In this document: piece by piece, positions 7,735 through 15,766 of the stretch
Layout: each line of letters begins with the position of its first letter
Position numbering within the stretch: position 1 is the first letter of the stretch
Origin: Bacteroidota bacterium
GTDB lineage: Bacteria > Bacteroidota > Rhodothermia > Rhodothermales > JANQRZ01
Reading direction: 5' to 3'
Assembly: GCA_038746285.1 (NCBI GenBank)
Contig: JBCDKT010000045.1
Location: 1-33,495 of the forward strand
Length of the DNA stretch: 33,495 bases
Program-made: the position numbers and the translations under genes
The notes under the pieces: generated by a model
The model's input: only the letters and a program-made list of their open reading frames with translations
The model's database searches: none
Told to the model about the DNA's origin: nothing

Positions 7735-10347
<2,613 letters not shown>

Positions 10348-11504: not shown

Positions 11505-12407
11505 ATGCCAGCCGACGGCTTGCCGAGCGTCTCGGTCATCGTCCCGGTCTACAACCAGGCCGACACGCTGCCGACGACCCTACCGGCCCTCCTCGACCAG
11601 GACCACCCGGCGGAAATCGTGCTCGTGGACGACGGCTCTGGGGACGGCTCGGGGGACGTGCTGCGTACCCTGATCGATGGGCGCTCAACGGCTCGCGTGA
11701 TCGCGCACGAGGCAAACCGGGGCCGGGCGGCGGCGCGCAACACCGGCATCGCGGAGGCGACAGGGAAGGTGCTGCTCTTCCTCGACGGCGACATGCGGCC
11801 CGCGCCCGACTTCGTCCGGCAGCACGCGCTCGCGCACCGCGCCCCCGGCGTGGTCGGCGTCGTCTCGTCCCCAGTCCTCGAAGGGCTGAACCTGCGCGAC
11901 CCATACCACCGCTACGTGCAGTCACGACGCGGAGCCTCGGCAGGGCAGGACGGCGAGGCTGTGCACTTCAAGTACTTTATCATAGGCTATACCTCGGTCA
12001 AGGCCGAGGCCGTGCGCGCGGTCGGCGGGTTCGACGAGCGGTTCACCTACGGCGAGGACATAGACTTTGCCATCCGCTTGCACGAGCACGCGCCGGGCGG
12101 GCTGGTCTACTCGGCTCGCGCCCGCGTCCACCACTACGCGCACGGCACGCTCGGCGACCGGCTCCGCAAGCTGCGCGCGTTCGGGCGGAGCAACCTGCCA
12201 CTGCTGTTCGAGAAGCACCCGGAGGCGATGAATGCGGCCAACCTCGGCTTCGTCGCGTCGCCGGTGCGGTGGCTGCTGCGCCCGGCGGTGGCCGCCACGC
12301 TGCGCCCGCTGCTGCCCGCGCTGCCCGGTGCGCTCCAGCATGCCGCCGTGCGCTACCTTGTCGCCACCACGATTGCCCGCGCCTACCGCGACGCCCCGGC
12401 CCGATGA
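11505..12407 (+). CDS. Family 2 glycosyltransferase
   Basis: A 300-residue GT-A fold enzyme transferring a sugar from a nucleotide donor. The N-terminus reads SVSVIVPVYNQADTLPTTLP, then EIVLVDDGSGDGS and the GRAAARNTGIAEATGKVLLFLDGDM segment, whose DGD is the metal-binding DxD equivalent. GGFDERFTYGEDIDFAIRL carries the ED acidic pair of the acceptor/base region. A C-terminal helical or membrane-proximal part follows (about 225-300), ending without a clear transmembrane pair. It starts three bases after the peptidase stop and overlaps the next gene by four bases (ATGA). Likely roles are lipid-linked or surface glycan synthesis together with the membrane transferase two genes downstream; the donor is unknown. 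Confidence 0.88.
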   Translation: MPADGLPSVSVIVPVYNQADTLPTTLPALLDQDHPAEIVLVDDGSGDGSGDVLRTLIDGRSTARVIAHEANRGRAAARNTGIAEATGKVLLFLDGDMRPAPDFVRQHALAHRAPGVVGVVSSPVLEGLNLRDPYHRYVQSRRGASAGQDGEAVHFKYFIIGYTSVKAEAVRAVGGFDERFTYGEDIDFAIRLHEHAPGGLVYSARARVHHYAHGTLGDRLRKLRAFGRSNLPLLFEKHPEAMNAANLGFVASPVRWLLRPAVAATLRPLLPALPGALQHAAVRYLVATTIARAYRDAPAR

Positions 12408-12811
12408 ACGCCCAGACCCGCACGTTCCCCAGCACCCCGGACGCCGTCACCGCAGCGTCCTCGTTCGTGCTAGACGCTGCCGAGCCGCTCGGGCTTTCCG
12501 ACGAGGTCCGCGAGGCGATGCTGCTCGTCGTCGGCGAGGCCGTGGCGAACGCGGCGGGGCACGGGAACGGGTACGACGCGGCGAAGCAGGTGACGGTCGT
12601 CTGCTCGGTCGCGGACGGCGAGGCGCGGCTGTGCGTCGAGGACGAGGGCGAGGGGATGTCGGCGGACCGCCTCGACGGGGCCGCGCTCCCCGATGACCCG
12701 CTGGCGACGAGCGGGCGCGGCCTCTTCATCATGACGACCGTCGCCGAGCGCCTGTGGCTGGAGGCCGGCGGACGGCGCCTCTGCCTCGCGTGGACGCACG
12801 ACGCCTCGTGA
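12404..12811 (+). CDS. RsbW-like anti-sigma factor / serine kinase ATPase-domain protein
   Basis: A 135-residue single-domain GHKL ATPase. The N-box EAVANAAGHGN is at 45-55, the G1 box DEGEGM in the middle, and GRGLFIM near 106-112 is the G2 region. This is the compact form of RsbW/SpoIIAB-type anti-sigma factors and of ATPase modules acting in partner-switching systems; no histidine phospho-acceptor domain is present, so it is not a sensor kinase. The start overlaps the preceding stop as ATGA, and the stop overlaps the next start as GTGA, making it the middle of a translationally coupled unit with two glycosyl-transfer genes. No anti-anti-sigma (STAS) gene or sigma factor lies in the window, so its partner is unknown. 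Confidence 0.85.
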   Translation: MNAQTRTFPSTPDAVTAASSFVLDAAEPLGLSDEVREAMLLVVGEAVANAAGHGNGYDAAKQVTVVCSVADGEARLCVEDEGEGMSADRLDGAALPDDPLATSGRGLFIMTTVAERLWLEAGGRRLCLAWTHDAS

Positions 12812-14664
12812 GTACGGAGCGCAGTCGGTCGAGGTGGATCGCCGAGCGCGGGCTGCTCGTCGCGGCGATGAGCGCGGCGGTAGGGTGTGCTGCCCTGGAG
12901 AGCGACGCGGCGGAGATCGGCTTTGTCGCCGCAGTGTGCCTCGGTACGGTCCTCGTCGTGCGTGCGTGGCACCGGGAGGACGTGACGATGCGCGAGGTGC
13001 TCGGCCTCGCCGTGCTGTTCCGGCTCGCGGCGTTTCCGCTCCTGCCGGGCCTCTCGGACGACGGCTACCGCTACGTGTGGGATGGCTTGCTGCAAATCGA
13101 CGGGATCAACCCGTACGCGTTCCGCCCCTCGGACCTCGCCGCGCAGTACCCCGACCTGTTCGAGCAGCTCAACTCGTCGGACTACTTCTCGGTCTACCCG
13201 CCCGCGTCGCAGCTTGTGTTTGCCCTCGGCGGGCTGTTCGGGTGGCCGGCCGCGTGGTACGTCATCAAGGCAGTCTTCGTCGGGATCGAGCTAGCGGGCC
13301 TCTGGACGATCAGCCGCGTCGTGCCGGCGCGGGCGCTCGTGCTCTGCGCGTGGCACCCGCTCGCGGTCATCGAGATCGCGGGGCAGGGGCACACCGAGGC
13401 GGGGATGGTCGGGATGCTGCTCCTCGCCGCGTGGGCGGTGTACCGGGCGAAGCCGGGGTGGGCCGTCGCCGCGCTGACGGTGGCGGGCTGGTTCAAGCTG
13501 GTGCCGTTCGTGCTCGTGCCGTTTCTGCTGCGGCGCGTCGGGTGGCGCTGGGTGTGGGTCGCCGCCGCGGTGTCGGTCGCGCTCGCGGCCCCGTACGCCG
13601 CGCCGTTCGTCCTGCCGAACGTGGCCGAGTCGCTCGGGCTCTACACCGGACTGTTCGAGTTCAACGCCGGGCCATACTACCTGCTGAAGGAGGCGGGGCG
13701 AGCGTGGACGGGGGGCGACGTGAGCAAGTCGCTTGGCCCGTTATTGCAAAACAATTTTCTGGTTGGGTTAGCCGGCATCTATCTGGCGGACGGGCTCAAG
13801 CGCTGGCCGCTGGTGTGGACCTGGCTCGCCGCCCTCGGCCTGTTCCTGGCGACCGCGACGACCGTCCACCCGTGGTACCTCCTCGGCGTCCTCGCGCTCC
13901 TCCCGCTGACGCTCGGCGATGCGTCGGGGCCGCCGGTCCGGCTGCACGCGGCGGCCTGGCTCTGGCTGTCAGTTGGCACGGTGGGCACCTACCTGTTCTA
14001 CACGCACGGGGCGACGCCGTACTGGACGGCTGTCGTCCTCGGCTGGGCAGGCTGGGCGGTGCTGCTCGGCACAGCGGTCGTCCTCGCGGCGCTGCCTGCG
14101 CTCATGCGGAAGCGCGCCCGCGACAAGTGGACCTGGATACGCCCACACGTCGGCGCGCCCGACCGCGTGCTCGACCTCGGGGCGGGGGACGGGTTCGTCG
14201 GCGAAGCCGTCGCCCGCGATCTCGGTGCGGAGGTCGTGCTGGCCGACGTGGTCGACTTCAACCGGACCGACCTGGCGCTCGTACTCTATGATGGGCACCG
14301 GCTCCCGTTCGCCGACGACAGCTTCGACGTGACGCTGCTCACCTTCGTCCTCCACCACGCCGCCGACCCCGACGCCGTGCTCCGCGAGGCCCGGCGCGTG
14401 ACGCGCGGCCGGGTCGTCGTCCTCGAATCGCTCGTCGAGACCGCGTGGGACCGACGCTGGCTTCCCTTCGCCGACCGCCTTGCTAACCGCCTGCGGTCCG
14501 GTGGGCGGATGGAAGAGGAAGTGTTGCGCTTCGGTTCAGCCGCGGCGTGGCGCGAGCGGTTTGCGGCGGCGGGGCTGCGGGTGCAGGCCGAAGAGCGGCG
14601 CGGGCGCAGGCTCCACAAGCGCCACCTCTTCGTGACGGCTATAGGGTCGATTGAGGCAACGTAG
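12808..14664 (+). CDS. GT-C-type membrane glycosyltransferase fused to a SAM-dependent methyltransferase
   Basis: A 618-residue two-part protein. Residues 1 to about 430 form a polytopic membrane region with many hydrophobic helices and, after the first pair, SDDGYRYVWDGLLQIDGINPYAFRPSD-type sequence: the paired acidic DD and WDGxxQxxGxNPY pattern of polyprenyl-phosphate-sugar-dependent (GT-C/GT87-like) transferases. Residues of about 430-618 are a class I methyltransferase: VLDLGAGDGFVGEAV near 454-468 is the SAM-binding motif, with DGHRLPFADDSFDVTLLTFVLHH as motifs II/III. The GTG start at 12808 gives a GTGA overlap with the previous gene. The cytoplasmic methyltransferase tail would modify the same or a neighbouring lipid-linked product. 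No frameshift is visible at the junction (LMRKRARDKWTWIRPH). Confidence 0.8.
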   Translation: MSTERSRSRWIAERGLLVAAMSAAVGCAALESDAAEIGFVAAVCLGTVLVVRAWHREDVTMREVLGLAVLFRLAAFPLLPGLSDDGYRYVWDGLLQIDGINPYAFRPSDLAAQYPDLFEQLNSSDYFSVYPPASQLVFALGGLFGWPAAWYVIKAVFVGIELAGLWTISRVVPARALVLCAWHPLAVIEIAGQGHTEAGMVGMLLLAAWAVYRAKPGWAVAALTVAGWFKLVPFVLVPFLLRRVGWRWVWVAAAVSVALAAPYAAPFVLPNVAESLGLYTGLFEFNAGPYYLLKEAGRAWTGGDVSKSLGPLLQNNFLVGLAGIYLADGLKRWPLVWTWLAALGLFLATATTVHPWYLLGVLALLPLTLGDASGPPVRLHAAAWLWLSVGTVGTYLFYTHGATPYWTAVVLGWAGWAVLLGTAVVLAALPALMRKRARDKWTWIRPHVGAPDRVLDLGAGDGFVGEAVARDLGAEVVLADVVDFNRTDLALVLYDGHRLPFADDSFDVTLLTFVLHHAADPDAVLREARRVTRGRVVVLESLVETAWDRRWLPFADRLANRLRSGGRMEEEVLRFGSAAAWRERFAAAGLRVQAEERRGRRLHKRHLFVTAIGSIEAT

Positions 14665-14890: not shown

Positions 14891-15766
14891 TCACCAAGAT
14901 GTGAAGTAAAACAGCAATTCTTTTTGGGCGTCGAGGTAGACATGCGTGTACTCTCCGAATGACATATTGATCTTCCATCCGTAGGAACCTAGCGGAGTCA
15001 CAGCAGAGGGCAAGAACCCAAAGTCACCAGGTGGAACTTTAGATAACACCTTGATCCACGTGATCTCACCATTCGTTACGCCTCGGAGAATCCACTGATC
15101 GGTAGCAGTCTTGCATAGCTCCAAATCAAATTCGTCGCTGATCGCCACCCTCTCGAATGTCGTGAGACTATCACTTGAATAATAACTCGGAGCTAACCAG
15201 GGTCCGTCGTCAAATGTGATTATCATGTATCCGTAACGCTGCGGCTCCTTAGCTTGCACCCGAAACCACTCTATCATGCGGTCAAGATTTTCATGATTCT
15301 CTAAGCCATGATTTAGACGGAACTCGAAATGACTCTCAGGGCTTAAGGTATCGACTAATTGCGCCGCGCTGCGAGCGAATTTTACTTCATCCTCAGTCCA
15401 CTCTTCTTTTTGCCACAGCGGCTGTAGTCGAAGGAACGTGCTCGGAATCATAGTCCACAGGAAACGTTCTGTCATGCCTAGACTAGGGTCGAGAGTCACT
15501 GAGTCTTCCGCAGCTCCGGCAGGGGCTAGCTCGTCGAGAACTCTTGCCCCATCGAAGAGGTTGTCTATTTCATTCAGGATCTTGTCTATCTCAGTTGCTG
15601 ATTCTCCAATAGGCATTGATACTTGTCCTTCGCCCATCAAGGGCCACATTCGAGACGCAATGAAAGGCTCAAAACTCGGATACAAGCCTCTCACTGTTTG
15701 GGCGGATGCCTCACAAAGTACTAAGATTAGAGTAAAACAAAGGATAAGAGAGATAATTCGATGCAT
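14891..15766 (-). CDS. Orphan secreted protein of unknown function in AT-richer DNA
   Basis: A 291-residue protein that I do not recognise. A signal peptide is clear: MHRIISLILCFTLILVLCEASAQ, with cleavage after ASA. The mature part is mildly acidic with many aromatic residues and no obvious catalytic motif; it contains LSPESHFEFRLNHGL, MIEWFRVQAKEPQRYGYMII and a C-terminal strand-rich segment with GSYGWKINMSF and KELLFYFTSW, suggesting a soluble alpha/beta or beta protein in the periplasm. Codon use differs sharply from the neighbours (many A/T-ending codons, visibly lower G+C from about 14820 to 15830), so it was probably acquired by transfer. No promoter box of the local TAnnTT(C/G) type precedes it. 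The downstream side holds an attC-like palindrome and the upstream side a truncated toxin gene. Confidence 0.75.
   Translation of the reverse strand: MHRIISLILCFTLILVLCEASAQTVRGLYPSFEPFIASRMWPLMGEGQVSMPIGESATEIDKILNEIDNLFDGARVLDELAPAGAAEDSVTLDPSLGMTERFLWTMIPSTFLRLQPLWQKEEWTEDEVKFARSAAQLVDTLSPESHFEFRLNHGLENHENLDRMIEWFRVQAKEPQRYGYMIITFDDGPWLAPSYYSSDSLTTFERVAISDEFDLELCKTATDQWILRGVTNGEITWIKVLSKVPPGDFGFLPSAVTPLGSYGWKINMSFGEYTHVYLDAQKELLFYFTSW

Follow-up and report, generated by a model that had tools for sequence, protein, structure and literature searches.

A GT-C glycosyltransferase and a class I SAM methyltransferase in one polypeptide, conserved in one order of Bacteroidota

At the locus studied here, a single open frame joins two enzyme domains. 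It lies in a window (the whole stretch of DNA that was analysed) of 33,495 nucleotides from a Bacteroidota bacterium, runs on the forward strand from a GTG at 12808 to a stop at 14664, and encodes 618 amino acids. The frame is open back to another GTG at 12754, and the start at 12808 gives a 4-base overlap with the upstream stop. The N-terminal half is a polytopic GT-C glycosyltransferase and the C-terminal half a class I SAM methyltransferase, with the boundary at about residues 435/436. This is a novel domain architecture assembled from two known families, and a literature search found no description of a GT-C/methyltransferase fusion. The features are the following:

11505..12407, + strand: GT2 glycosyltransferase, 300 aa, overlapping the HATPase gene by 4 bases (Pfam E 2e-29); most relatives have a GT4 in its place
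12404..12811, + strand: small HATPase_c_2 (RsbW-like) protein, 135 aa, overlapping the fusion by 4 bases (Pfam E 5.4e-20)
12808..14664, + strand: fused GT-C glycosyltransferase / class I SAM methyltransferase, 618 aa
12808..14112, + strand: GT-C domain, residues 1-435, with an additional N-terminal hairpin and the GT-C core from about residue 52
13051..13086, + strand: catalytic loop L82-S-D-D-G-Y-R-Y-V-W-D-G93, with D85 as proposed catalytic base
14011..14148, + strand: last membrane helix, residues 402-447, unbroken into the methyltransferase, with the basic RKRARDK on the cytosolic side
14113..14661, + strand: class I SAM methyltransferase domain, residues 436-618
14167..14196, + strand: SAM-binding motif I VLDLGAGDGF, residues 454-463

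The earlier note on this DNA had described the joined frame, a motif for each half and 4-base overlaps with a GT2 enzyme and an ATPase. All of this was borne out: the motifs are present (the first-loop pattern from residue 83 onward), the overlaps are real, and relatives are fused too.

At the level of distribution, a search of 60 relatives found fusion homologues as single frames, at 83% identity in the same genus, 61% in the same family and, for full-length matches, 39-54% across the order. Twenty-nine fused proteins, the window's included, align over the two domains; invariant columns number about 50 and are distributed across both. We then surveyed 114 genomes of the order with a profile of these 29 proteins at a threshold of 1e-40, counting the classes by hand from the rows. 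The profile matched in 82 genomes and found nothing in 32. Both domains stood in one full-length row in 62 genomes, and two more (G338 and G344) gave two rows each that we assigned to one long frame (720 and 588 aa, the latter with a stop read through). Among the irregular rows, G023 ends at a contig edge, G010 consists of two frames and G050 is partial. The GT-C part alone was present in 15 genomes (12 in genus g14 and three in g25). A contig search with the single protein retrieved one relative, from a Rhodothermales bacterium metagenome-assembled genome. Separate genes in relatives, which the earlier note had named as a possible refutation, are thus not what the order displays. The fusion is real and long-conserved in one bacterial order, and it is not a frameshift artefact.

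Outside the order, no row spanned both domains in 296 genomes of the phylum, where the GT-C relatives lack the methyltransferase; at most four candidates per genome were scored in this search, so a second copy could escape it. Standalone GT-C proteins are frequent there (mostly 430-510 aa, E down to 4.5e-83). They have the same domain as the fusion, but no methyltransferase and GT2 neighbours of their own. Strong methyltransferase matches outside the order were restricted to G106 and G117, both rows of the query. In eight GT-C-only genomes of the order tested for a separate methyltransferase, none was found, the best match (E 9.4e-11) being at the generic level. Beyond Bacteroidota, the search for the fusion covered plasmids. 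A plasmid-borne fusion was rejected as well, as the three plasmid records that matched all covered 30% of the query or less. On a Miltoncostaea oceani plasmid (NZ_CP064357.1, 609970-610389, match H3), a GT-C-like match overlaps a feature whose annotation reads glycosyltransferase family 2 and is possibly another GT-C fusion.

For the GT-C half, the evidence is mainly structural. AlphaFold2 modelled the whole protein with a pLDDT of 93.1 and a pTM of 0.88. Since methyltransferases took up most rows of the full-length structure searches, the GT-C half (residues 1-435) was modelled alone, with a pLDDT of 95.9. The top structural rows were all GT-C fold proteins, which places the half in this superfamily by fold: ALG3 (VIA Z 23.0, rmsd 3.9, 336 aligned), GPI mannosyltransferase I (21.1, also found by profile at E 4e-4), ALG6 (20.2), PIG-U (19.8), ArnT (17.2) and PimE (17.0 over 346 residues, Foldseek E 1.7e-4). 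The two best matches, ALG3 and GPI mannosyltransferase I, are eukaryotic dolichyl-phosphate-mannose transferases; they differ from the fusion in their low identity (11-15%), in a match that does not include the methyltransferase, and in their eukaryotic acceptors.

Family models were less informative for this half. No Pfam or NCBIfam glycosyltransferase family matched the window's GT-C half at E 0.01. The GT87 profile (PF09594) matched 29 of the 43 GT-C members at E <= 0.01 (best 1.1e-10), with the window's half below threshold. The MptA/MptB models TIGR03459 and NF038066 matched 15 and nine of the 43 at the same cut-off, and neither recognised the window's half as an equivalog.

The fold alone is no proof of glycosyltransferase activity, because PIG-U, according to PMC12041525, has the GT-C fold and is no glycosyltransferase. 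The residues of the site argue for activity. D85, R88, D92, Y130, H195, K230 and W356 are invariant in 43/43 GT-C rows, and the first-loop motif of the window protein reads S83-D84-D85...R88-Y89-V-W-D92-G93...G99-I-N-P-Y. D85 is the acidic residue expected of the superfamily in the first extracytoplasmic loop, and its catalytic role is predicted from sequence. Such an invariant catalytic signature supports a probable glycosyltransferase activity of the GT-C half.

PimE, the mycobacterial polyprenyl-phosphate-mannose-dependent alpha-1,2-mannosyltransferase of family GT87, is a close comparison for this site. Its description (PMC12041525) gives an active-site set of D58 (base), Y62 (its partner), K195 (phosphate-binding), W319 and H322. 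The fusion resembles PimE in its fold, in its first loop, where D85-x3-Y89 has the same spacing as D58-x3-Y62, and in K230, which aligns with K195 in a weak sequence match (E 0.063). H354 aligns with PimE H321 and W319 falls onto T352, both in a segment of negative score; W319 has no clear counterpart in the fusion. The structural match to PimE covers residues 56-429 and leaves the N-terminal hairpin and the methyltransferase outside; the PimE acceptor is a mycobacterial PIM.

For the methyltransferase half, family models gave a direct answer, and it was the only half of the window protein that Pfam recognised: Methyltransf_11 at residues 455-533 (E 6.9e-12, 46.3 bits, cut-off 21.2) and Methyltransf_23 at residues 449-594. 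The domain has the marks of a class I SAM methyltransferase, namely a Rossmann-like fold (VIA Z 19.0 to 1vl5), motif I and an acidic residue after strand 2. The SAM-binding residues, whose loss on alignment would have counted against the earlier note, are intact: L455, D456, G458 and G462 are invariant in 29/29 fused proteins, and D480 is kept in 90% or more. Methyltransf_11-type class I enzymes share the fold and motif I, but in the fusion the domain is anchored to a polytopic transferase instead. Against the UbiE/MenG quinone methyltransferase equivalog, it scored 46.2 bits with a cut-off of 327. Its best PDB relatives act on many small molecules, phospholipid enzymes among them, and therefore the sequence does not indicate a sugar target. 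One relative of this methyltransferase (L121) lies near a UbiA-family gene.

At the topological level, we assigned sides by alternating the membrane helices outward from D85 and then counted loop charges in the 29 proteins. The cytosolic loops 168-176, 211-217 and 241-248 were net positive in 29/29 and loop 328-335 in 22/29, and the linker 432-446 had a mean charge of +4.8 (net positive in 28/29). The periplasmic stretches 80-131 (mean -5.3) and 264-306 (-1.7) were net negative on average. Two loops go against the charge rule: 367-377, at net -0.55 and positive in 1/29, and 229-232, positive owing to K230. In the AlphaFold2 model, DSSP assigns one helix from 402 to 447 that continues from the membrane into the methyltransferase. 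The predicted arrangement is a GT-C active site on the periplasmic side and a methyltransferase on the cytosolic side, joined by one continuous helix. SAM is located in the cytosol. If the predicted sites lie on opposite faces, one molecule cannot meet both at once, and a flipping step must intervene.

Regarding the evolution of the two domains, we built a tree of 56 GT-C domains by maximum likelihood, with 18 of its 53 inner branches left open and no firm deep placement for L048, family f4 and the paralogues. One branch (100/100) sets the 16 standalone GT-C proteins from other Bacteroidota apart from all the rest. The eight GT-C-only proteins of the order fall into two groups among the fused ones, which requires two changes among the order rows. 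Label counts alone do not separate gain from loss. Family f13, to which g14 belongs, has the fused form in seven further genera (g161 and g165 by two-row matches), and this form also occurs on deep branches; the GT-C-only form in two genera is thus best read as two losses of the methyltransferase. Genomes of family f15 (L067, L068 and L069) also carry a second GT-C paralogue that is unfused; its branch is very long, and it has its own conserved neighbourhood (c37, c30, c43).

The GT-C and methyltransferase domains share a history and co-diverge: their identity matrices correlate with a Mantel r of 0.76, and 0/5000 permutations reached this value. Both domains are under purifying selection. dN/dS was computed on seven pairs, two of which were saturated at silent sites. 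In the other five, for the GT-C and methyltransferase domains respectively, it was 0.18 and 0.13 between the window and L032, 0.24 and 0.18 between the window and L033 (with silent sites close to saturation), 0.13 and 0.14 for L036-L037, 0.13 and 0.31 for L064-L070, and 0.13 and 0.20 for L049-L064.

The gene neighbourhood is conserved too. The usual order in fused relatives is guaB, an M24 peptidase, GT4/GT2, often an FG-GAP subtilase, HATPase, the fusion, and on the other strand a gene that, from its sequence, we take to be miaA. Counted by hand over the 29 fused loci, a GT2 or GT4 lies upstream in 22 (a further locus, L051, is ambiguous, as GT4 and peptidase profiles match one long frame), in 23 the upstream neighbour on the same strand is the HATPase, and a miaA-like gene follows the fusion in 19; the window has no miaA-like gene there.

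The earlier note had linked the fusion to this RsbW-like ATPase. Adjacency holds, and an obligate link does not: HATPase homologues occur in 86/114 order genomes, including some without the GT-C gene, and were not found in several of the fusion-bearing genomes among the 114, so that the HATPase is no obligate partner. The neighbour protein (P0003) passes the cut-offs of general HATPase models and scored 28.1 bits against the RsbW equivalog PRK04069, with a cut-off of 145. The RsbW-like gene is a positional neighbour, and a regulatory partnership may exist without being required.

Some further features of the region are recorded here. In many relatives, a subtilase of about 1430 residues with FG-GAP repeats lies upstream of the HATPase-fusion pair (L066, 4566-8870); it is absent in the window. 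The window's guaB (7750-10347, + strand) encodes an IMP dehydrogenase with a 378-residue in-frame insert (window 8650-9783, C301 to N678) directly before the active-site loop SICTTR. With its Hint and weak LAGLIDADG matches, it is an apparent intein; in L032, of the same genus, guaB is uninterrupted (487 aa). Downstream, a 291-residue ORF (14891-15766, - strand), whose start is signal-like, matched neither Pfam nor NCBIfam. It lies in the window's lowest-GC 1-kb block (0.505), and in the neighbour table its cluster (c58) appears in the window and L032 only.

Concerning donor supply, the window's genome has 15 GT2 matches. One GT2 of 332 aa resembles polyprenyl-phosphate-sugar synthases in its PDB matches (ArnC 1.2e-43, GtrB-type sll0501 7.6e-25, DPMS 4.4e-15). 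Another, of 252 aa, has 50-61% identity to the GT2 of about 230 aa that adjoins standalone GT-C genes in other Bacteroidota, and its solved relatives by sequence are GpgS and, weaker, DPMS. Across the 114 order genomes, the 252-aa type and the GT-C gene occur together in 74, GT-C alone in eight, the GT2 alone in four and neither in 28 (Fisher p 2e-15, uncorrected for shared ancestry, owing to which the counts are not independent). In the loci of standalone GT-C genes (L102-L117), the same-strand cluster includes the GT2 of about 230 aa (10/16) and a cellulose-synthase-like membrane GT2 of about 490 aa (11/16), an unnamed three-gene glycan module.

At the functional level, what was computed for the fusion comprises the single frame, its conservation, the domain folds, the constraint on both domains and the topology signal; for the donor, the acceptor, the methyl position and a common pathway for both domains, we infer the following. 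At slightly under even odds, the fusion would be a membrane enzyme with two heads that serves the assembly of lipid-linked glycans and performs two steps of one pathway on opposite faces. The GT-C domain would take a hexose, mannose if the analogy holds, off a polyprenyl-phosphate sugar and attach it to a lipid-anchored glycan at the periplasmic face, with D85 as a putative base and K230 and H354 probably near the donor phosphate. The donor class of ALG3, GPI mannosyltransferase I, ALG6, ArnT and PimE speaks for such a donor. The methyltransferase, tethered at the cytosolic face by the rigid helix, would use SAM on a membrane-bound intermediate of the same pathway before flipping, and the likeliest reaction would be O-methylation of a sugar that the neighbouring GT2/GT4 has added. 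The earlier note had suggested a methylated lipid-linked sugar pathway. The fold, the upstream glycosyltransferase in 22/29 loci and the GT2 co-occurrence favour the lipid-linked sugar; its methylation we infer.

A more specific version, possible and still rather doubtful, is a trans-bilayer bifunctional enzyme in which one lipid-linked intermediate is methylated by the cytosolic head and, once flipped, glycosylated by the periplasmic head. Methylation would then mark or gate the outer extension, in an enzyme kept across one order with the methyltransferase lost twice.

A different and unlikely possibility is that the donor is what becomes modified: a polyprenyl-phosphate sugar would be methylated in the cytosol, and the GT-C domain would transfer the O-methyl-hexose outside. 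The same topology and membrane tethering fit this scheme, as do the resemblance of the co-occurring GT2 to GpgS and, weaker, DPMS, and the methyltransferase relative near a UbiA-family gene. However, the GT-C gene occurs without the methyltransferase in 15/114 genomes, and the donor is then not necessarily methylated.

It is less probable still that the GT-C half mainly anchors a methyltransferase for a quinone, a phospholipid or a small hydrophobic substrate. The weak likeness to UbiE/MenG models (46 bits against 327) and the small-molecule and phospholipid enzymes among the best PDB matches point this way, but the catalytic-site residues of the GT-C half are invariant, that half is under constraint, and the recurring neighbours are glycosyltransferases.

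In WbdD, methylation caps a growing lipid-linked glycan. Control of length or export of this kind, with a cytosolic cap and a GT-C domain acting on the capped, flipped product, has a slim chance here: it agrees with methylation at the cytosolic face and transfer outside, but there is no kinase domain among the fusion's family matches and no polymer is known. Finally, an erroneous join of two genes in sequencing or assembly can be practically dismissed, since the split of G010 lies within the GT-C half rather than at the domain joint and the 62/114 order genomes with the fusion in one row rule such a join out.

Returning to the two-headed enzyme, the GT-C and methyltransferase activities are separable, because two genera retain the GT-C gene and lack the methyltransferase; these genera are a natural experiment. 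If the model is true, methylated envelope glycans are predicted in the order, on which a literature search found nothing. Moreover, one polypeptide would couple a cytosolic SAM-dependent step to a periplasmic polyprenyl-phosphate-dependent step across the same membrane.
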